Shown in pieces: positions 7,332 through 48,783 of a DNA stretch of 64,000 nt; position 1 is the stretch's first letter; every line of letters begins with the position of its first letter. The notes below the pieces were generated by a model. That model was not told the DNA's origin, searched no databases, and was given only the letters and a program-made list of their open reading frames with translations. Origin of the DNA: Chryseobacterium vaccae. Lineage in GTDB: Bacteria; Bacteroidota; Bacteroidia; Flavobacteriales; Weeksellaceae. The stretch covers positions 4,017,001-4,081,000 of the forward strand of contig NZ_VSWH01000001.1 in assembly GCF_009602705.1 (NCBI RefSeq), in the 5' to 3' direction. Position numbers and translations under genes: made by a program.

Positions 7332-7643
7332 ATGAATATAGATGAATTCAGGGCAGAACTTGAAGTAAGACTTTTAATTGAGAAAGAATATTTAATCAGA
7401 GAAGCGTCCTCCATTGAAGATGTTCAGGAAAGGCTTGAGCTGTTGGGGAAGTTTAATGAGAAATACAAAATGTTGATTAAAAGACTGGCAAATGAAGAAG
7501 GTATTGATTTGAATGCACCTTATCCGCCTGAAGTTCCTTCCGACTCAGAAAACCTTACCTACGAACAGATCATTCTTGGCAAAACCATGAGTGTTTATGA
7601 TAGATTATCTGATGAATTATATGAAGAAATAACGAACGTATGA
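7332..7643 (+). CDS. Small acidic helical protein of unknown function
   Basis: The 103-residue protein is acidic and strongly helical (EFRAELEVRLLIEKEYLI, VQERLELLGKFNEKYKMLIKRL), with a Pro-rich middle (PYPPEVP). No catalytic motif is visible. Its stop overlaps the start of paaI by four bases (ATGA at 7640-7643), so it is coupled to paaI. With the preceding basic protein it makes an opposite-charge pair between paaH and paaI. Function unknown. Confidence 0.72.
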   Translation: MNIDEFRAELEVRLLIEKEYLIREASSIEDVQERLELLGKFNEKYKMLIKRLANEEGIDLNAPYPPEVPSDSENLTYEQIILGKTMSVYDRLSDELYEEITNV

Positions 7644-20157: not shown

Positions 20158-20706
20158 TTAACTGCGGGAAGGATATATTCCTTCAACACAGATAATATAG
20201 TTCAGTCCGATATACGGAGGCATATTATTCACAGGAAGATTCTGCCCGGTGAACATAATAGACTTTGTACTAATAGCCGTATCCGGATCAGCATCTATAA
20301 AACTTGGCACTGGGTCAAAGTTCCTCCCGTTTGGAATTCCCGAAATAGCAAGTGCTGAAGCAGCCGTAGGGGTTGCACTGTTGGCATTCTGGTTTTTTAC
20401 TCTCAGCTGAAACCCACCTCCTATACTTGGAAGATTGGCTGATAATAGTGTATTCTGAGTGGTCCCTGCCTGAACTCCTAAAGGATAATTTTCGTTAGAG
20501 TTTACGGTTCCGGCTCCGATAGCCATACGCCCTTTCATGTTAGGGAGTGCGAAAGTATCAATCCCGTTTCCTCCGTAAGTTGTTCCCAGAATTGAAAATA
20601 AAGCGCTGTTTTGGGAAATTCTTAATAAGCTTCCGTCGCAGAACATCCAGCCTCTAGGTGCAAAATTTCCGGCAAATAATTTTACGATTCCAATGTACTC
20701 ATCCAT
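20158..20706 (-). CDS. Phage tail-collar domain protein (MdpB-like)
   Basis: The 182-residue protein starts with YIGIVKLFAGNFAPRGWMFCDG, the hallmark of the phage tail-collar / microcystin-dependent-protein family, and continues with LFSILGTTYGGNG, FALPNMKGR and the NNMPPYIGLNYIICVEGIYPSR end. No phage genes are nearby. Such proteins are usually found as tandem chromosomal genes in Bacteroidota, but here there is one. Their role is unclear. A palindrome 138 bases upstream is shared with the tyrosinase promoter. Confidence 0.88.
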   Translation of the reverse strand: MDEYIGIVKLFAGNFAPRGWMFCDGSLLRISQNSALFSILGTTYGGNGIDTFALPNMKGRMAIGAGTVNSNENYPLGVQAGTTQNTLLSANLPSIGGGFQLRVKNQNANSATPTAASALAISGIPNGRNFDPVPSFIDADPDTAISTKSIMFTGQNLPVNNMPPYIGLNYIICVEGIYPSRS

Positions 20707-20843
20707 AATAAATAGTTTTCAGTGATTAAATTTCCTACTCGTATAGGGCTTTTCGGATTCCGCCTCAATAGATCAGTTGTTTTGATAGGTCAAAGGAACG
20801 ATTTCCCATAAGGCAGTACTAGCGTAGAAAATACCAAATTTCG

Positions 20844-40542: not shown

Positions 40543-42054
40543 ATGGCTAAATTCTTAAGAAAAAATGCATGGGAGAAAGGAGGCACTTTTGATAACCCTG
40601 ATCTTTTTTGGTATGCAAAGGGAGTAGGAGCTTTGCAATCAAGACTTCTGAGTGATGAAAACAGCTGGTGGTTCTTTGCCGCTATTCATGGTGAACAGAT
40701 TGGAGGAAAGAAATTTCCTAACTGGAATGTACTTACCGGTGTTCCGAAAGTTCCTACAAGCCCGCTTCCTTCCCCGGATGTTATTAAGAAATTCTGGAAT
40801 CAATGTCAGCATCAAAGCTGGTATTTTACACCATGGCATCGTGGTTACCTTATCGCTTTGGAAGAACAGGTTCGTCAGGCGGTCATCAGTTTAGGAGGAC
40901 CGGCAGACTGGGCACTTCCTTATTGGAATTATTTAGGTCCCGGAGATCAATATAAAATTCCACCTGCCTTTATGCAGGAGACAATGCCTGATGGTAGTGC
41001 CAATCCTTTGTATGTAACCGCGAGATATGGACCTAAAAGTGACGGAAATGTATATGTACCCATCCCACCCATCTCAGAGGTATGCCAGGGAAATACTATT
41101 TATACAGGAAGCAATACTTCAACGCCACATCCTGGATATGGAGGGCCAAAAACGAAATTTTCACATGACGGTAATGTGAGCGGAAATTTAGAAAGCAATC
41201 CGCACAATCTGGTGCACGTAAAGGTTGGAGGCCAGGATGGCTGGATGTCAGATCCTGATTCTGCCGGGCTGGATCCTATTTTTTATCTGCACCATTGCAA
41301 TATAGACAGAATGTGGGCGGCATGGAATACAAGCAATGATAATCCTACGGATCCGGATTGGTTAAACGGGCCTGCAGCATCGGGGGAAAGAGAGTTTATC
41401 ATGCCTGTACCGGGTAATGATAAAGGCTGGGTATACACTCCTGCAGAAATGAGTAACTTAGAGACACTGGATTACAGCTATGATGACCTTTCACTGACCA
41501 CGGCTCCGCTGCCTCAGAAGACACTTGCTCAGAGATTAAATAAATTAGGTGCACAGCCTGTTGAAAATCTGGAAGAAAAAAATATGGATTTAGGACGTAA
41601 CTCAGAGCTTGTTGGTGCCAATGCAGGACAAGTTCAATTAGACGGATCAGGAACAAAAACCAGTGTAAAGCTGGAAGGAAGCTCCTGGAAAAACGTATCC
41701 GGAAGTCTGATGAAAGCTTCGGTAAACAATTTGCCGGATCAGGTTTATCTTCAGCTGGAGAATGTGAAAGGAACCGCTGATTCCAATGTTTTAAGTGTTT
41801 CGGTAAATCATCAGCTGGCAGGCTACGTTTCTCTTTTCGGGTTACGTAACGCTTCTGACAAAGACGGGCATAATGGAGGTAATGGACTTACTTTTATCCT
41901 GAATATTACAGAGATCATTGACAACCTGTTTGTGAGTAATAATCTTGATGTAAATTCTCTGGAAGTAGCTATTCTGCCTGATAACGCAATTCCAAATGAC
42001 GAAACCATTACGGTAGGACGGGTGAGCATCTACCGTGAACAACAGAAATTATGA
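40543..42054 (+). CDS. Tyrosinase-family type-3 copper protein
   Basis: The 503-residue protein carries the CuA histidines H49, H90 and H99 (QCQHQSWYFTPWHRGYL, with Cys88 two residues before H90) and the CuB histidines H221 and H225 (NPHNLVHVKVGG) and H250/H251 (FYLHHCNIDRMW). The C-terminal part (about 345-503) is a beta-sandwich-like extension seen in plant-type polyphenol oxidases. No signal peptide is visible. It should oxidise phenols to quinones. Its stop overlaps the DUF2182 start. Confidence 0.93.
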   Translation: MAKFLRKNAWEKGGTFDNPDLFWYAKGVGALQSRLLSDENSWWFFAAIHGEQIGGKKFPNWNVLTGVPKVPTSPLPSPDVIKKFWNQCQHQSWYFTPWHRGYLIALEEQVRQAVISLGGPADWALPYWNYLGPGDQYKIPPAFMQETMPDGSANPLYVTARYGPKSDGNVYVPIPPISEVCQGNTIYTGSNTSTPHPGYGGPKTKFSHDGNVSGNLESNPHNLVHVKVGGQDGWMSDPDSAGLDPIFYLHHCNIDRMWAAWNTSNDNPTDPDWLNGPAASGEREFIMPVPGNDKGWVYTPAEMSNLETLDYSYDDLSLTTAPLPQKTLAQRLNKLGAQPVENLEEKNMDLGRNSELVGANAGQVQLDGSGTKTSVKLEGSSWKNVSGSLMKASVNNLPDQVYLQLENVKGTADSNVLSVSVNHQLAGYVSLFGLRNASDKDGHNGGNGLTFILNITEIIDNLFVSNNLDVNSLEVAILPDNAIPNDETITVGRVSIYREQQKL

Positions 42055-42857
42055 AAATCTCAGTAAGAGATGGCAACTATATCACGGCTGTCATTCTCAT
42101 CACAAGTATCATATTCTGGATTATATTGCTGGTGAATCCGGGTGGAATTATGGGGATAAAACATTGCCACATGACGGCAGACGGCGCATCAAATGTTTCT
42201 CTGCAGATGATGCTTCAGATGAATCCTTTTTCAGAGATGATGACAGGCTGGATTCTTATGGTATTGGCGATGATGCTTCCAAAGCTGATCTCACCGGTTC
42301 AGTATATTTATGCAAGAAGCCTTAAAAGACGTCGCTTCTGGCTAAGCTTACTCTTTGTATTAAGTTATACAATGGTCTGGACGGTTATGGGAGTAGTAAT
42401 GAATGCTGTTATCCTCGGATTTAATCTGTTATTGCCCGGAGGCTCATATATTCCGGCTCTTATCGTAGGAATTGTAGCTTTGATCTGGCAATTTTCACCA
42501 GTGAAGCAAATGTGCTTGAACCGCGGACATGATCACATCTCGATTGCTGCTTTGGGATGGGCTGCAGATCGGGATGTCTTGAAATTTGGAATAATGCACG
42601 GAATATGGTGTATCGGTTCTGGATGGGCCTTAATGCTGTTCCCGATGATCCTGCCGGAAGGACATAATCTGGCGATGATTCTGGTAACGGTTATTATGAT
42701 CAGTGAACATATGGAGCATCCAAGATATCCGCGCTGGAATTTTGATTTCCGTCTGAAGCTCATCCGGATCATGGTGGCCAGAATAAAAATCAATTGTAAA
42801 AGAAAAGAAGAAATTCAACATCAGGTTCACTTTGATATGACTGAAAAATTTCTTTAA
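42051..42857 (+). CDS. DUF2182 membrane protein, possible copper handling
   Basis: The 268-residue membrane protein has about six helices and the DUF2182 motif WQFSPVKQMCLNRGHDH. It is rich in Met and His near the membrane (IKHCHMT, MMLQMNPFSEMMTGW, IMISEHMEHPRY). It starts inside the tyrosinase stop (ATGA at 42051-42054). That coupling suggests that it supplies copper to the tyrosinase, or moves copper for it. Nothing in the sequence proves metal transport. Confidence 0.83.
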   Translation: MKISVRDGNYITAVILITSIIFWIILLVNPGGIMGIKHCHMTADGASNVSLQMMLQMNPFSEMMTGWILMVLAMMLPKLISPVQYIYARSLKRRRFWLSLLFVLSYTMVWTVMGVVMNAVILGFNLLLPGGSYIPALIVGIVALIWQFSPVKQMCLNRGHDHISIAALGWAADRDVLKFGIMHGIWCIGSGWALMLFPMILPEGHNLAMILVTVIMISEHMEHPRYPRWNFDFRLKLIRIMVARIKINCKRKEEIQHQVHFDMTEKFL

Positions 42858-42930: not shown

Positions 42931-44229
42931 TCAACTCTGATACCCCAGTAATTTTCTGATCTGGTAGAAGAATCTTTCAATCAGTCTTAGGTCCTGGGTG
43001 ACAATTTCAGCATTCCCTCTGAGCTCTTTATCAAATACGAGGGTTTTGTTATAGCTGGTTTTTAATCCTTTTGGAAGAATTACATCTACGTAATAATTTC
43101 CTTTGTCATCCGGAATAAGAGAGATATTCTGTACTTTTCCTTCCACAATACCATATTCCTGAAAACGGTAATTATCCAGTTTAATCAGTACTTTTTCGCC
43201 TGGAATGATTTTTCCGGAGTTAATGGTAGGTACAGACATCCGTCCTACAAGATTCTCTTTATTGGCAGGAAGAATAGAAAGAATAGGTTCACCGGTTTTT
43301 ACAAACTGATTTTCACCAAAAAACTGTTGAAAACTGGCCATACCGTCAGTCGAAGAAATTACAAGATAGGTTTGTTCCCATTGTTTTAAAGACTTACGAA
43401 GCTGTTCGAAAAGCTGTAAAGTCTGTGATGAATAAGTAATCTTGTCCTTTTCTGTATTAATGGCAGTACCGCTTTTGGTTTTATGTAGGTTGGAGATTCC
43501 TTCTTCCATCTGTGATAGAGAAATCGTAATATTTTCAAGATTCTGCTGGGCCTGAATATATTTTATTTTCTCGTTTTCCAGTTCCATGGAAGAAATAACG
43601 CCCTGGTTAAATAGTTCCTGCGATCGTTGATAATTCTTTTTTGTGAGTTCATATTTGGCCTGTTCTAAATTCTTTTGCTGCTTCGTTGTTGCCATTCTTA
43701 CACGGTATTCCGAAAGACTCTGATTGGCTGCAATATTTTCCGGTGCATAAGGCTGGAGTCTGGTGAAAAGTTCTTCATCCTGAAATGCTTTTGCAAAATT
43801 GTTGTAGTCGCCCTGAAGCTCTCCAAGCTTAAACCTTGATGCCTGCGCGATGGGAAAGGACAGAACCTGGTTGGGAGTAATGGAATCCACCAGTTTTTTC
43901 AATTCCAGAACATCTTTATAGTTGGCTGCAGACTGCATCACCATAAGAACATCATTCTTTTTAACTTCCTGATGGTTTTTGATAAATATTTTTTCAATTT
44001 TTGAACTGGTCCGGGCCTCTATCTTTTCAGGAGGATTTTGTGAAGTAACAATAATTGGAGCCGGAACAAATTCAGGGTACTTGATGATGTAGCTCATCAG
44101 AAGAATAAGCAGAAGTATAATAAATATAAGCGTATTTCCCCAGCGTATCATCCAATGGGGCGGCTGGGTAAGAATGTCCTGAACGCTTTCCGAACGAAGT
44201 TCAATAGTATCTAAAATTTCCTTTTCCAT
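42931..44229 (-). CDS. HlyD-family adaptor of the peptide exporter
   Basis: The 432-residue protein has one N-terminal membrane helix (TLIFIILLLILLMSYII), a biotinyl-lipoyl-like stretch (ARTSSKIEKIFIKNHQEVKKNDVLMVM), a long coiled coil (about 150-250) and a beta-barrel part. It is the membrane-fusion adaptor that should link the ABC exporter to an outer-membrane channel. No TolC-type gene is visible in the window. It follows the exporter gene by 189 bases on the same strand. Confidence 0.88.
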   Translation of the reverse strand: MEKEILDTIELRSESVQDILTQPPHWMIRWGNTLIFIILLLILLMSYIIKYPEFVPAPIIVTSQNPPEKIEARTSSKIEKIFIKNHQEVKKNDVLMVMQSAANYKDVLELKKLVDSITPNQVLSFPIAQASRFKLGELQGDYNNFAKAFQDEELFTRLQPYAPENIAANQSLSEYRVRMATTKQQKNLEQAKYELTKKNYQRSQELFNQGVISSMELENEKIKYIQAQQNLENITISLSQMEEGISNLHKTKSGTAINTEKDKITYSSQTLQLFEQLRKSLKQWEQTYLVISSTDGMASFQQFFGENQFVKTGEPILSILPANKENLVGRMSVPTINSGKIIPGEKVLIKLDNYRFQEYGIVEGKVQNISLIPDDKGNYYVDVILPKGLKTSYNKTLVFDKELRGNAEIVTQDLRLIERFFYQIRKLLGYQS

Positions 44230-44418
44230 ATAAGCAGTCTGTTGAAACCAAAATCTTCACAGGAAGATCCTGATTCATTTTTTCATTTTAAAATAAATTA
44301 TAACAAAGACAGTTGGCAATCATATCTCTAATCATTGTAATGCTGTCTTCAATTTTTTTCTTTGTAATATTGTAATTGATACGTATTAAGTTGAGTACGT
44401 GAATTTAGTAAAAACAGA
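44230..44418. other. Gap between exporter and adaptor genes
   Basis: The 189-base spacer has no clear promoter. A 38-codon stretch open on the - strand (ending near 44293) encodes IRINYNITKKKIEDSITMIRD and ends in CLCYNLF, but it has no usable ATG/GTG/TTG at its beginning. It may be a remnant of a small gene or simply chance. Confidence 0.3.
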
Positions 44419-46611
44419 TTAATTCCCCAATTCCAGCTGATTCTTCACCAGTCTGTAATATTCACCTTTTAAAGCAACAAGTTCACTGTGGCTGCCTTCT
44501 TCCACTACCTTTCCTTTATCCAGAACAATGATCTTGTCGGCATGTTTTACGGTAGATAACCTGTGAGCTATGACAATGGCTGTTTTTCCTTTAAAGAATT
44601 GTTCCAGATTTTCCATAATGATCTTTTCATTATTGGCATCTAAGGCAGAAGTAGCCTCATCGAAAAAGATATATTCCGGAGATTTATAAACTGCTCTGGC
44701 AATGAAAAGCCTTTGTTTTTGTCCACCGCTTACTCCCACGCCTTCATTTCCGATTTTTGTATTGTAGCTTAAAGGTAGTCCTTCAATAAACTCTTTAATA
44801 TTAGCAATTTCTACGGCACGTCTTAATTTTTGCTTGTCGATATGATCTTCGCCAACAGCAATATTGTTGGCAATCGTATCATTGAAAACATACCCTTCCT
44901 GCATTACAACCCCACAATGATCTCTCCAGAATCTTGGAGATACGTTTTTCAATTTTGTATTCCCTATTTTAATATCTCCTTCAGAAGGCTCATAAAACTT
45001 CATGAGCAGCTTTAAGAGCGTCGTTTTTCCGCTTCCGCTTGCTCCTACAATAGCGGTGGTTTTCTGATAAGGAATGCTAAGATCCAGATTTTCAAATACC
45101 GGAACATCAGACCCGATGTATCTGAATGACATATTGCTGATCTCAATGTCTTTTTGCGGTACTTCTGTAGCATATTGCTCATCCTTGTCTTCTTCATCTT
45201 CTTTATCATGAATTTCACCAAGCCTTTCAAGAGAAATTTTAGCATCCTGAGTTTGTTTGATAAAGTCAATAAGCTGAAGCAGTGGGCTGTTAAGCTGCCC
45301 AATAATATACTGTACAGAAAGCATCATCCCCAAAGTAAGATTACCGCTCAGAACAAGTTTTGCAGAAAGAAAACTTACCAGGATATCTTTCATCTGGTTA
45401 ATGAAATTTCCTCCTACAGACTGCCATTGCTCTAATGAAAGTGACTGAATTCTTATTTTAAATAGTTTTACCTGAAGGAATTCCCAGTCCCAGCGTTTCT
45501 GTTTTTCAGCATTATGCATTTTAATTTCCTGCATCCCGTTGATCAGTTCAATGACTTTACTCTGTTCCTGAGAAACCTGAGAGAATCTTTTATAGTCTAA
45601 TTCTTTTCTCTTTTTAAGGAAAAAGCTGATCCATCCAACATACAATACGGCTCCTACCAGATAAACGATAAATAGTCTATAGTCATAAAACAATAGAACA
45701 ATACTGAAAATAATAAGGTTGACCAATGAGAACAATGTATTTAAAGACGAACTGGTCAGAAGCTGTTCAATTCTGTGATGGTCATTAATTCTCTGCATGA
45801 TATCTCCTGTCATTCTCGTATCGAAAAAGCTGATAGGAAGTCTCATCAGTTTAATAAAGAAATCTGAAATGATAGAGATATTGATTCTGGCGGATAAGTG
45901 AAGCAAGATCCAGCTTCGGATAACTTCAATTCCCATTCTTCCCAGAAACAGCATGATCTGTGCAAGAAGTACAACATAAATGAAGTTAAGATCCTGATTT
46001 TGTATCCCCACATCTACAATACTCTGGGTAAGGAATGGGAAAATAAGGGAAAGTAAACTTCCTGCTAAAAGTCCTACTGCAAGCTGGATAACAAGTGATT
46101 TGTACTTTAAAAGATATTTGGACAGAAAAGAGAAGCTTGCCTTGCTTTCTTCTGAATCGAATTCGGTCTGGAAAAAAGCCGGTGTTGTTTCCAGAATCAG
46201 GACAATACCCTCTTCTGTATTTTCATTGGCATTTTCTCCTATCCATAGTTTGATGAATTCTTCTCTGGTATAGGTAATCAGTCCATAACTGGGATCTGAA
46301 ATATAGACTTTATTGTTTTTGTCAATCTTATAAACAACAACGAAGTGATTTTTGTTCCAGTGTACAATGCATGGGAATGGAACTTCTTCTGTAAGGGTAT
46401 TGAAATCAATCTGAACCCCAAGTGACCGGAATCCCAGATTTTCTGCTGCATCACTGAGCCCTAAGAGGCTGCTCCCTTCACGGGTAGTTTCAGAAAGTGT
46501 ACGGATCTGCTGAAGCGAGATGCTTTTGCCATAATATTTACTTATTATTCTAAGGCAGGTGGGCCCGCAGTCTTTAGCGTCAGGCTGTTTATAAAAAGGA
46601 AATTTCTTCAA
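44419..46611 (-). CDS. Peptidase-containing ABC exporter (C39 PCAT)
   Basis: The 730-residue protein has an N-terminal C39 peptidase with the triad Cys15 (KDCGPTCL), His89 (NHFVVVY) and Asp106 (ISDPSYG), six membrane helices, and a nucleotide-binding domain with Walker A GASGSGKTTLL, signature VSGGQKQRLFIARA and Walker B IFFDEATSALD. It should cut double-glycine leaders and export the peptides. The start is TTG at 46611. An ATG at 46624 is one frame away over a seven-A run. Confidence 0.93.
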   Translation of the reverse strand: MKKFPFYKQPDAKDCGPTCLRIISKYYGKSISLQQIRTLSETTREGSSLLGLSDAAENLGFRSLGVQIDFNTLTEEVPFPCIVHWNKNHFVVVYKIDKNNKVYISDPSYGLITYTREEFIKLWIGENANENTEEGIVLILETTPAFFQTEFDSEESKASFSFLSKYLLKYKSLVIQLAVGLLAGSLLSLIFPFLTQSIVDVGIQNQDLNFIYVVLLAQIMLFLGRMGIEVIRSWILLHLSARINISIISDFFIKLMRLPISFFDTRMTGDIMQRINDHHRIEQLLTSSSLNTLFSLVNLIIFSIVLLFYDYRLFIVYLVGAVLYVGWISFFLKKRKELDYKRFSQVSQEQSKVIELINGMQEIKMHNAEKQKRWDWEFLQVKLFKIRIQSLSLEQWQSVGGNFINQMKDILVSFLSAKLVLSGNLTLGMMLSVQYIIGQLNSPLLQLIDFIKQTQDAKISLERLGEIHDKEDEEDKDEQYATEVPQKDIEISNMSFRYIGSDVPVFENLDLSIPYQKTTAIVGASGSGKTTLLKLLMKFYEPSEGDIKIGNTKLKNVSPRFWRDHCGVVMQEGYVFNDTIANNIAVGEDHIDKQKLRRAVEIANIKEFIEGLPLSYNTKIGNEGVGVSGGQKQRLFIARAVYKSPEYIFFDEATSALDANNEKIIMENLEQFFKGKTAIVIAHRLSTVKHADKIIVLDKGKVVEEGSHSELVALKGEYYRLVKNQLELGN

Positions 46612-46630
46612 AACTTTTTTTCATTGTAAA

Positions 46631-46653
46631 ATGCCGCCAAAAGATGGCGACAT
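46631..46653 (-). terminator. Hairpin between peptide and exporter genes (possible attenuator)
   Basis: Read on the - strand, ATGTCGCCA (46653-46645) pairs with TGGCGGCAT (46639-46631), with one T-G pair, followed by only TTT. It lies between the second peptide gene and the exporter. A weak terminator here would give more peptide mRNA than exporter mRNA. Confidence 0.5.
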
Positions 46654-46697
46654 TTTTAATTTATCTACTATTATTAATATTCAAGCTTAGCGCTTAT

Positions 46698-46862
46698 TTA
46701 CAGAATGCATACCTTATTGCATACCCGTACACAAATTTCATCTAAAGGGCATCCGCCGATAGGATAGCATACTGATACAGCCTGGATACGGGCACATTCT
46801 TCAGTAATTCCCCCCTTAAGAGTCTTTAGGTTTTCCCTTGAAAGTTTTTTTAAATTTTTCAC
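46698..46862 (-). CDS. Double-glycine-leader, six-cysteine secreted peptide 2
   Basis: From GTG 46862 the peptide is 54 residues: leader MKNLKKLSRENLKTLKGG (GTG read as Met) and a 36-residue core with six Cys (core positions 5, 14, 20, 26, 30, 34), ending KVCIL. An ATG at 46922 in frame would add 20 residues and overlap peptide 1. The GTG is favoured because it makes the leader match that of peptide 1 residue for residue. The GG matches the cut site of the C39 exporter next to it. Confidence 0.82.
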   Translation of the reverse strand: MKNLKKLSRENLKTLKGGITEECARIQAVSVCYPIGGCPLDEICVRVCNKVCIL

Positions 46863-46908
46863 AATAGTCTTTTTTGTATTGGTTGTTGTTTTTAATTCAG
46901 TAAATTGA

Positions 46909-47100
46909 TTAGATCGGATCATGGCAGAATGAAATCATACATTTAGTAAAACTCATGCACATTGGCGTACAGCCTTTATAGCATACTATTTCAAAACTGC
47001 TTGAACAACGCCATCCACCCAGACCATCACTTATAGGGGTACTGTCTCCACCAATGATCATTTTCAGGTTTTCGCGGGATACTTTCTTTAAATTTTTCAT
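46909..47100 (-). CDS. Double-glycine-leader, six-cysteine secreted peptide 1
   Basis: The 63-residue peptide has an 18-residue leader MKNLKKVSRENLKMIIGG and a 45-residue core, DSTPISDGLGGWRCSSS to FCHDPI. The core has six Cys at positions 14, 22, 26, 30, 36 and 41. The leader differs from that of peptide 2 at only a few positions, but the cores are unrelated. It is most likely cleaved at GG by the exporter's C39 domain and oxidised on the outer side of the membrane. Confidence 0.87.
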   Translation of the reverse strand: MKNLKKVSRENLKMIIGGDSTPISDGLGGWRCSSSFEIVCYKGCTPMCMSFTKCMISFCHDPI

Positions 47101-47217
47101 AATAATTAGTTTTGGTTGGCTTCCTACTCTTTTAAAGCTCTTCGGATTACGCTTTTATTTTTTCCTAAGATAGTGAATTTTCAAATTCAATAAAGGTTTT
47201 TCTTTTGGAAAATCTTA

Positions 47218-48723
47218 CTAAAAGTCTTCATCTTCTATTAATTCATCAACGAAATACCAGATATCGTCACGATCATATTTATCCGGGAACTGATATCCGT
47301 TCAGAACGAATATAGGAGTGAAGTTAAGTCCTGCATTACTGTTGTCAGTAGACATTGCAGTGAATGGTGTAAGATCCTCAGTCGTAGCCAAGCCTGCTCT
47401 TGCCACAGCTTTGCTCTCATCTTTTGTTTCAAACCATTCTTCTATAGTGTGCATGAATTCTTTCTGAGGTTTGTTATGGTACATATAGTTGAATGCAGAA
47501 AGAAGCTGAGTGTATTTTTCAGGAGCCCTGTCCGGGAAATAATTGAAACGGATTTGTCCGGAAATATCTTCCGGGTATTTTTCCAAAAGTCCCTCCATAA
47601 TCTTATGAGCATCTTTACAGAAACCGCAATAGGGATTAGATACAATGGCAATACGAAGTTTAGCATCTTTATTTCCCAGAGAAAAGGTCTGGTTATCCTG
47701 AAATGTTATTTTTTCATTTTCTAAAAGCTGACTTTTGAAAAGATCATAATTTCTTTTAAATCTTAGATTTTTTGCATTAGATTTCTGAAGGTTTTCTTTT
47801 TGAGTAAGCAGATTGCTGGAATATAGGACGGCTGAAAAGATAAGCAGCCACAAAATAAGAGTTAATAATAACATTCCTATACTAAAAACCGTGTTCTGAA
47901 ACAACAGAGTACTGATTACGATTTGTCCTGCAAGAATTGAAATAATCAAAAGGCAGACTCTGCAGAATGTTTTCTCTACAAAAGCCTGAATATATAAAGA
48001 ATAAGCAATGGCAATTACCGAAACAAACGTGAATCCCTTAATAATATAAGCTGAAGCTGGAAGGAATAATCCCATTACTGCAAGTCCGGTAAAATAGATC
48101 AGAGAAAAATCTGAAAACTTTAAACCGAAAATACTTGTTTTATCCTGTTTGATGATCTTATCACATGAATTAGCCGCCTGGCTGGCAGTTGTATCACCGC
48201 ATATACTTCCGATAACTGTGGAAGTATTCCCGAATTTCTGGTTGAAGATTTCCAGCGAGATGTAAACGCCGGCTAACGAAAGAACATTGAAAATAGCTTC
48301 ATATACACTCAGAGTTAGAAAAGAGTAGATAAGAATGACCGCAAAAACAAGATATAAAACAGGCTTAAAATCAAAAGCTGATTTATTTTCTGCGTTTTCT
48401 GTTTTTTCAAATAATAATACGAAATCTGTAGATTTTTGATGAAGTTCTTCTTTGTTAAGAGTTTTAGCTTTTTCTGAGTAAACTGAATAAGAGTTTCCTG
48501 ATTTTTTTACAAGAGAGAAAGAGTTGTCCACAATAGCAATAAATTCTTCCGGCAATTCATCCCAGTATTCTTTATCCAGTTCATAGGCATCATTTTTTAC
48601 CCCCATAAAGTTTAAGGTATCGCTGAATGCAAGTGCAGAAGGAAAATTAGGATGCGAATTGAACTGAAATGTGAATTCCTGTTTGTCTAATTTCAGGTAG
48701 TTTATTAGCTTGTCAAAAATCAT
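47218..48723 (-). CDS. VKOR-DsbA fusion with degenerate C39-like N-terminus
   Basis: The 501-residue protein (from ATG 48723; an upstream ATG at 48783 would add 20) has three parts. Residues 1 to about 110 follow the C39 outline (HPNFPSALAFSDTLNFMGVKN, LPEEFIAIVDNSFSLV) but lack the catalytic Cys and His. Next comes a VKOR membrane domain with a luminal Cys pair (SICGDTTASQAANSCDK) and the membrane FCRVC. A DsbA-like domain with NPYCGFCKDAHKIME and TPIFVLNGYQFP ends it. It should form disulfide bonds, very plausibly in the Cys-rich peptides encoded just downstream. Confidence 0.88.
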   Translation of the reverse strand: MIFDKLINYLKLDKQEFTFQFNSHPNFPSALAFSDTLNFMGVKNDAYELDKEYWDELPEEFIAIVDNSFSLVKKSGNSYSVYSEKAKTLNKEELHQKSTDFVLLFEKTENAENKSAFDFKPVLYLVFAVILIYSFLTLSVYEAIFNVLSLAGVYISLEIFNQKFGNTSTVIGSICGDTTASQAANSCDKIIKQDKTSIFGLKFSDFSLIYFTGLAVMGLFLPASAYIIKGFTFVSVIAIAYSLYIQAFVEKTFCRVCLLIISILAGQIVISTLLFQNTVFSIGMLLLTLILWLLIFSAVLYSSNLLTQKENLQKSNAKNLRFKRNYDLFKSQLLENEKITFQDNQTFSLGNKDAKLRIAIVSNPYCGFCKDAHKIMEGLLEKYPEDISGQIRFNYFPDRAPEKYTQLLSAFNYMYHNKPQKEFMHTIEEWFETKDESKAVARAGLATTEDLTPFTAMSTDNSNAGLNFTPIFVLNGYQFPDKYDRDDIWYFVDELIEDEDF

Positions 48724-48783
48724 ATTAATATTTTTATCTAAAATACGCAGAGATTTCAAATAAACAAATTTTTTTTCTTTCAA

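Follow-up and report, generated by a model that had tools for sequence, protein, structure and literature searches.

The locus studied lies at 42931–48723, on the − strand, of a 64,000-nucleotide stretch of the Chryseobacterium vaccae genome (contig NZ_VSWH01000001.1, positions 4,017,001 to 4,081,000; the whole stretch is hereafter the window, and coordinates refer to it). It encodes a putative membrane disulfide oxidase in which VKOR and DsbA domains are fused, two Cys-rich precursor peptides with double-glycine (GG) leaders, a peptidase-containing ABC transporter (PCAT) and an HlyD-type adaptor, and is a hub common to the genus rather than a self-contained two-peptide cluster. Taken as a whole, the locus is probably a shared exporter–oxidase for Cys-rich peptides carrying the same leader, switched by a DUF805b RNA and with products that are most likely bacteriocin-like.

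Precursors sharing one 18-residue leader, two of them local and about thirty encoded elsewhere on the chromosome, would be recognised by the active C39 domain of the PCAT, which, judging from its sequence, would cut after the GG, the core then being pumped through PCAT–HlyD. As the cores reach the periplasm, the VKOR–DsbA fusion would oxidise their four or six Cys to two or three disulfides, while a catalytically dead C39-like domain probably docks the oxidase on the leader or the exporter. A DUF805b pseudoknot just upstream of the start codon would switch the peptide operon, and the peptides would be directed against other bacteria.

Precursors sharing one leader are scattered along the chromosome

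Peptide 1 (46909–47100, − strand) consists of an 18-residue leader, MKNLKKVSRENLKMIIGG, and a 45-aa core; peptide 2 (46698–46862, − strand, GTG start) of an 18-aa leader and a 36-aa core. An earlier annotation made from the letters of the window (the first-pass annotation) had proposed two GG peptides with cores of these lengths and six Cys each, and both were recovered as such, scoring 27.1 and 29.8 bits, respectively, with the leader_Chryseo model (NF047798; cut-off 23.5 bits). They also matched NF047792 (CCPGW_fam, named ‘putative bacteriocin’), but only far below its cut-off. In NCBIfam, NF047798 is called ‘bacteriocin-like protein’, which is a label and not an activity test.

The leader was by no means confined to the locus. 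This genome gave 36 leader_Chryseo matches at E ≤ 1, 21 of them over the cut-off, and 34 of the 36 lay outside the locus; of 14 control genomes, two matched at E ≤ 1 and none over the cut-off. The cores of the 34 precursors read (of the 36) were mostly of 25–63 aa, with one of 77 aa; the number of Cys was even in 31 of them, and 4 or 6 in 29. The 30 best-scoring leader loci from other genomes of the genus, picked on leader score and not on Cys content and several of them mutually related, yielded 28 resolved precursors, all with 2, 4 or 6 Cys. Five Cys, an odd number, characterise one leader_Chryseo peptide family (G000:C1:3203746 and loci L123, L130, L133 and L135), an exception in which dimerisation or a free thiol may be involved.

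The oxidase, the PCAT and the leader occur together

The co-occurrence of these elements was followed in 148 genomes of the genus, this one included, with a leader threshold of E ≤ 0.01; at most 56 leader candidates were scored per genome, so that high counts are lower bounds. A VKOR orthologue was present in 138 genomes and absent from ten (G011, G053, G057, G060, G079, G098, G104, G115, G219 and G221), G053 having only a 25% VKOR relative. A leader match was found in 137 of the 138 genomes with VKOR, against one of the ten without it (a single weak match, in G221), an association with a Fisher p value of 1.4 × 10–12, uncorrected for kinship. At least ten leader matches were seen in 121 of the 148 genomes. 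The PCAT orthologue was also absent from eight of the ten VKOR-less genomes, five of these eight keeping a PCAT of only 46–47% identity. In a set of 20 chosen genomes, a close PCAT (89–93%) was present in 12 and absent from eight, all eight VKOR-less. In a sample of 148 genomes of the family, the 128 from outside the genus divided into 11 with both VKOR and leader, six with VKOR only, three with the leader only and 108 with neither (Fisher p 1.6 × 10–9). Of four VKOR-only genomes looked at, G247 had a fragment only, G320 and G329 had GG peptides with other leaders, and G349 had a GG peptide with two Cys. The proposal of the first-pass annotation, that a dedicated membrane oxidase accompanies the export of disulfide-rich GG peptides, is thus supported by a genus-wide association of genes that is less complete in distant relatives.

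The same counts bear on whether the VKOR fusion might be a general periplasmic disulfide oxidase, placed beside the exporter by chance or convenience. That its orthologue is present in 138 of the 148 genomes would suit such an enzyme, as would its being the sole VKOR-fusion match in this genome (other Dsb-type enzymes were not searched for). However, the ten genomes of the genus that lack the orthologue are 99–100% complete, and nine of them have no leader match; distant and paralogous VKOR fusions adjoin Cys-rich GG peptides too (29 of 38 loci, described below), and the oxidase carries a C39-like domain. A general oxidase is therefore quite unlikely.

Several observations count against one exporter–oxidase serving all these peptides. 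Genomes G053 and G221 keep a PCAT without a VKOR orthologue; G090 (an assembly of 320 contigs) has VKOR and PCAT, on a contig of 5 kb, and no leader match, and G029 has VKOR and PCAT but one weak leader match. The VKOR gene is split by stops in G038 and G063, genomes with at least 50 and at least 35 leader matches, respectively, and is partial in G088. The distance between VKOR and PCAT is ∼150 kb in G101 and ∼22 kb in G093, so that the hub genes need not adjoin. Outside the genus, three genomes have leaders but no VKOR match. Weak leader matches may also be due to chance, since two of the 14 controls match at E ≤ 1, and a leader match does not prove that every scattered peptide is exported by this PCAT. 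Finally, this genome encodes a second PCAT (46%) and a lone C39 protein. That second PCAT was considered as the exporter of these peptides and judged unlikely, since a PCAT of 46–47% is kept in five of the eight genomes that lack VKOR, the close PCAT and leader matches, these PCATs being equated with the second PCAT by similar distance and not by tested orthology.

Peptide cassettes turn over between conserved hub genes

From 98 oxidase relatives in named genomes, 80 loci were kept (78 of Chryseobacterium and two of ‘Weeksellaceae bacterium’ records), those of near species not being independent. In 74 of the 80, a PCAT (>80% identity) and an HlyD gene followed downstream on the same strand; no such PCAT lay in the stretch retrieved for the other six (L197, L212, L219, L230, L231 and L232), the first four of which end early. 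Peptides were recognised with a leader filter that sets no condition on Cys and that recovered 30 of 34 known peptides. Between VKOR and PCAT it found none in 33 loci, one in 22, two in 13, three in three and four in three; between PCAT and HlyD, none in 45, one in 23, two in five and three in one. The two gaps together held 101 distinct cores (67 + 34), all with 4 or 6 Cys, which fell into 17 clusters. A further 37 distinct cores located elsewhere in the stretches had 2, 4, 5, 6 or 7 Cys, the number being even in 31. VKOR, PCAT and HlyD thus mostly stay together while peptide cassettes turn over in the gaps.

These numbers speak to a narrower reading, in which the locus is a two-component bacteriocin cluster whose two six-Cys peptides pair, the oxidase, PCAT and HlyD serving them alone. 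Relatives of both peptides do occur together in this genome, in Chryseobacterium indologenes CI_885 (L156), where a near-identical core occupies the slot equivalent to that of peptide 1, and in L157, where a third peptide stands between them. Nevertheless, the gaps hold 0–4 and 0–3 recognised peptides drawn from the 17 clusters, no recognised peptide separates VKOR from PCAT in the 33 of 74 loci noted above, and the genome has 36 leader matches. The self-contained pair suggested in the first-pass annotation was consequently rejected as very improbable: both the number and the families of peptides at the locus vary, and the leader copies are scattered, 34 of 36 lying outside it. The reading preferred is that of a hub with exchangeable substrates.

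The oxidase carries a predicted C39-like domain

The oxidase (47218–48723, − strand, 501 aa) is a predicted fusion of a C39-like domain (CLD), VKOR and DsbA, the last two identified by Pfam matches to PF07884 (VKOR, E 2.9 × 10–10) and PF13462 (Thioredoxin_4, E 1.6 × 10–8). The open reading frame (ORF) extends further upstream to a TTG at 48783, from which residues are numbered below; the ATG at 48723, the start given in the first-pass annotation, is nevertheless the better one, since an alignment of 30 relatives becomes conserved from about that point. The VKOR domain (47911–48291, − strand) corresponds to residues 165–291, and the DsbA-like thioredoxin domain (47245–47691, − strand), with a CGFC motif, to residues 365–513. 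VKOR residues Cys195, Cys207, Cys274 and Cys277, and thioredoxin residues Cys386-x-x-Cys389, were invariant in the 30 aligned sequences, which identifies the protein as a VKOR–DsbA fusion with putative oxidase activity. An AlphaFold model of the full-length protein (mean predicted local distance difference test score, pLDDT, 78.3; predicted template modelling score, pTM, 0.53) gave only thioredoxin-fold proteins, such as ScsC, BdbD and DsbA, in the 50 Foldseek matches listed.

The N-terminal region (48394–48723, − strand) carried no assigned domain: for residues ∼20–130, the precomputed annotation of the 120 homologues listed (of 397) gave no Pfam domain and no C39, and a single-sequence Pfam search with the oxidase returned only a weak C39 match (E 0.13). 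A profile built from 19 relatives, in contrast, was aligned by hhalign to exporter C39 domains with 94% probability (E 9.1 × 10–8), and 16 of the 19 members matched PF03412 at E ≤ 1, the best at 5 × 10–6 and that of the window at 0.0074. A sequence search with this profile against PDB sequences gave no match. When folded alone, the domain reached a mean pLDDT of 87.9, and in a Foldseek search of the PDB ranks 1–24 were all C39 domains or C39-containing transporters (ComA, PCAT1, LahT with leader, the HlyB C39-like domain, HlyB and a Vibrio structure), with template modelling (TM) scores of 0.59–0.73 by query length. The predicted model thus has a C39 fold by both Foldseek and hhalign. The catalytic Cys is absent, there being no Cys anywhere in the domain encoded in the window; in the profile alignment the catalytic His lies opposite a gap and the Cys beyond the aligned range. 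The oxidase is therefore predicted to begin with a C39 fold that has lost its catalytic Cys, as in the C39-like domain of HlyB. The presence of such a domain on an oxidase is new as far as the literature was checked.

According to the parts of PMC6363468 available, catalytically dead C39-like domains serve type I exporters by recruiting substrate. We infer that the domain here carries the oxidase to either the precursor or the exporter. A difficulty arises from the two hydrophobic stretches that precede the first VKOR Cys in most members looked at: simple parity would leave the C39-like domain on the periplasmic side, separated from the uncut leader, unless one of the stretches does not span the membrane. 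With a periplasmic placement, docking on the exporter, the adaptor or the core would be likelier than leader binding.

DUF805b RNAs lie before many peptide genes

A DUF805b RNA (RF02914, classed as cis-reg in Rfam), comprising a hairpin and a proposed pseudoknot, was located with the covariance model at 47121–47155 (− strand), 20 nt upstream of the start codon of peptide 1. The match was full-length and scored 46.0 bits against a gathering score of 35.6, which places it within the family. This genome had 17 matches at E ≤ 1, of which ten were below 10–4 and six over the gathering score; all 14 control genomes matched at E ≤ 1, none of them over the gathering score and none at E ≤ 10–4. A start codon lay 17–25 nt downstream of all ten strong copies, and five of these precede leader_Chryseo peptides.

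A covariance model built from the ten strong copies was used to scan the 80 loci (E ≤ 0.01). It gave 89 matches, 81 of which directly precede a GG peptide whose start lies 16–26 nt downstream; 79 of these peptides have 4 or 6 Cys, one has a single Cys and one has ten. At least five of the remaining eight matches resemble, by eye, decayed or variant precursors. Of 70 gaps holding peptides, 48 had an RNA before the first one; when every gap peptide was counted, 52 of 105 had one. Nine chosen genomes of the genus with the hub (this one included) carried 3–17 RNA copies each, and ten without it 0–5 (Mann–Whitney p 3 × 10–4), the hub-bearing genomes being mostly the larger ones. Broken or shortened precursors were seen by eye after DUF805b in L169, L181, L194, L197, L202 and L212 near position 7550; these are signs of the birth and death of peptide cassettes.

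When 39 copies were aligned, 117 of 117 cells of a 3-bp pseudoknot linking the hairpin loop to the 3′-end were paired, and two of the three pairs change on both sides (UA, GC, CG, AU and UG at one; CG, UA and UG at another). Pairing holds in 91% of the cells of the hairpin, the outermost pair of which fails in 13 of the 39 copies. The covariation score of the whole structure was 0.676, compared with 0.185 for shuffled and at most 0.13 for slid alignments, although the slid control favours the pseudoknot, which was drawn from the same 39 sequences. The Rfam consensus line gives a 4-bp hairpin alone and no pseudoknot. The link of DUF805b to GG peptides and the pseudoknot come from this work and are new as far as the literature was checked, although the published description may already hold the latter; DUF805b was reportedly first described by Weinberg et al. 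in 2017. In the openly licensed literature searched, ‘DUF805b’ occurs in no paper and ‘DUF805’ in none among the matches listed.

The fit between RNA and peptides is incomplete. The other five strong copies in this genome precede genes for tail-collar, caspase, trypsin-like, PI-PLC/ricin-lectin and DUF6520-like proteins (the last assignment lying below the Pfam cut-off), no RNA was recognised before the first peptide in 22 of the 70 peptide-holding gaps or before 53 of the 105 gap peptides, and DUF805b is present in hub-less genomes too. A second DUF805b in the window (20732–20766, − strand, 36.9 bits, over the gathering score) stands 25 nt before a tail-collar-domain gene (∼20158–20706). At L292 and L287 (G000:C1:4548310 and 4549218), two DUF805b RNAs lie ∼0.9 kb apart, one belonging to a caspase-domain gene and the other to a gene for a trypsin-like peptidase, and pairs at this spacing recur by their coordinates in G002, G011, G017, G112, G219 and G221, at most one member of each pair having been read. 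DUF805b may be a mark of conflict-type operons.

The company kept by the RNA also enters into the question of what the peptides do. They could be signals or host-interaction factors and not bacteriocins, a role that a large, fast-changing disulfide-rich repertoire would fit. The repertoire does vary widely in size, from 0 to at least 55 leader matches per genome; DUF805b precedes the caspase, trypsin-like, PI-PLC/ricin-lectin, tail-collar and DUF6520-like genes as well as peptides, and no immunity gene was evident by eye among the ORFs inspected, which were not searched systematically for one. Yet bacteroidetocin loci, as far as PMC6671954 is available, produce toxins and likewise show no obvious immunity gene, and the NCBI family name of the leader (a name, not a test) is bacteriocin-like. 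Signals or host factors are thus rather unlikely, and antibacterial peptides exported and oxidised by the hub would be the better account.

A bolder version of the hub can be put forward tentatively, as possible but short of probable: a leader-steered oxidase, in which the dead C39 domain reads the leader that the active C39 domain of the PCAT also reads, or docks on the same exporter. A single hub could then fold an open-ended set of unrelated four- or six-Cys peptides, exchangeable as cassettes, under a pseudoknotted candidate riboswitch shared with other conflict-type genes.

Gene content of the locus and its surroundings

The five genes in a row on the − strand described in the first-pass annotation were all recovered with Pfam and NCBIfam matches. 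The PCAT (44419–46611, − strand, 730 aa) has C39 peptidase (PF03412, E 2.7 × 10–36), ABC membrane (PF00664) and ATPase (PF00005) domains, as expected of this kind of exporter, and the intact Cys15/His89/Asp106 triad earlier noted in it was unchanged in 11 of 11 aligned exporters. It was 88–97% identical over its full length in 36 of 40 fetched relative loci; in the other four (L123, L125, L129 and L130) the fetched stretch had no PCAT match or a partial one. The HlyD-type periplasmic adaptor (42931–44229, − strand, 432 aa) matched PF13437 (HlyD_3) with E 2.2 × 10–9. For peptide 2, GTG 46862 is the most likely start because the surrounding sequence resembles, by eye, the start of peptide 1.

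Cys-rich ORFs of this kind were scarce in the window. Of 119 six-frame ORFs of 40–85 aa, four had at least four Cys after residue 18, and two of those four had six, the count of the reported peptides. The GG-peptide filter applied to the whole 64 kb retained three ORFs with at least four Cys and, once ORFs overlapping longer ones were left out, the reported two peptides alone. Beyond HlyD, on the + strand, lie a gene for a tyrosinase-domain protein with a C-terminal DUF7868 domain (40543–42054) and, directly after it, one for a membrane protein of the PpoB2 (copper chaperone) family (42051–42857).

Distant and paralogous VKOR fusions

A set of 38 distant or paralogous VKOR-fusion loci was hand-picked from longer match lists. 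A GG peptide with at least four Cys lay within 6 kb in 29 of them, a PCAT in 28, and both in 23. Cys-rich GG peptides numbered 58 in 494 kb near VKOR (52 of the 58 with an even number of Cys) against one in 176 kb farther away. Across the class, 18 of 295 sampled genomes had the fusion at E ≤ 10–30, including this genome and two others of its genus. The association thus reaches past the genus but is not universal: in nine of the 38 loci no Cys-rich GG peptide was recognised nearby, and ten have no PCAT.

Proteins with a Porph_ging (PF09697) domain stand beside some paralogous VKOR fusions (L138, L139 and L147), and in L147–L149 the stretch includes Cys-rich GG peptides without any PCAT. Other distant fusions without a nearby PCAT have DUF6625 neighbours (L141 and L143) or thioredoxin/DUF4369 neighbours (L140 and L141), while in L139 a DUF6734 protein and a PCAT stand beside the fusion. 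The neighbours in L139–L141 and L143 are possibly another substrate class.

Comparison with known systems

If correct, this reading would show how a single machine lets Gram-negative bacteria that have no evident biosynthetic cluster keep tens of disulfide-rich peptides, and would give a rule for genome mining: to look for the leader, not the cluster. It would also define a substrate-recruiting disulfide oxidase, and provide a defined set of target genes for the DUF805b RNA with which to seek its ligand or regulator. Of the first-pass annotation, the export of Cys-rich GG peptides with an oxidase stands; its view of the two peptides as a pair was too narrow, and it had missed what is more surprising in the locus, namely the regulatory RNA and the C39-like domain.

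No description of this Chryseobacterium system or of a C39–VKOR fusion was found in openly licensed literature, as judged from titles and the beginnings of abstracts among the matches listed, which is weak evidence. A term search of the available part of PMC10352776 found no mention of ‘vitamin K’, VKOR, disulfide, Chryseobacterium, thioredoxin or HlyD. The NCBIfam entry of NF047798, as seen, models the leader alone and has no exporter, oxidase or RNA attached to it.

The VKOR–thioredoxin fusion of solved structure, which we take to be from Synechococcus, presumably has four VKOR Cys, as here, and one hydrophobic stretch fewer than the present oxidase. Fusions of this type (3kp9, 4nv2, 4nv5 and 4nv6) share with it the VKOR bundle and the thioredoxin domain; the oxidase here has the N-terminal C39-like domain in addition. 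The C39-like domain of HlyB (3zua) has the same fold, has also lost the catalytic Cys and, in the available parts of PMC6363468, recruits substrate; it sits in an ABC transporter, whereas here the domain is fused to a disulfide oxidase.

By analogy, the locus would work most like a bacteroidetocin locus. The first-pass annotation had singled out the pairing with an oxidase as what stood out; the pairing is indeed present, but an oxidase coupled to a GG peptide and a PCAT is not new in kind, since, as far as PMC6671954 (Coyne et al. 2019) is available, bacteroidetocin loci already combine these genes, and deletion of their thiol oxidoreductase weakens activity. A GG-leader peptide with Cys, a thiol oxidoreductase and a PCAT stand side by side in both, the likeness being one of gene content and not of oxidoreductase family. 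According to the same passages, bacteroidetocin loci have four genes, among them a separate five-transmembrane protein, and leaders of 15–16 aa; no such protein is evident among the five genes here, although it may correspond to the VKOR part. Because the window leaders, at 18 residues, fall outside that length and the cores were not compared, the locus was not filed as a bacteroidetocin locus but with the PCAT/GG-peptide kind. What sets it apart from bacteroidetocin loci is its tens of scattered precursors with an 18-aa leader, the fused CLD–VKOR–DsbA oxidase, the HlyD adaptor and the DUF805b RNA; of a C39-like domain, HlyD or an RNA the bacteroidetocin passages available in PMC6671954 make no mention.

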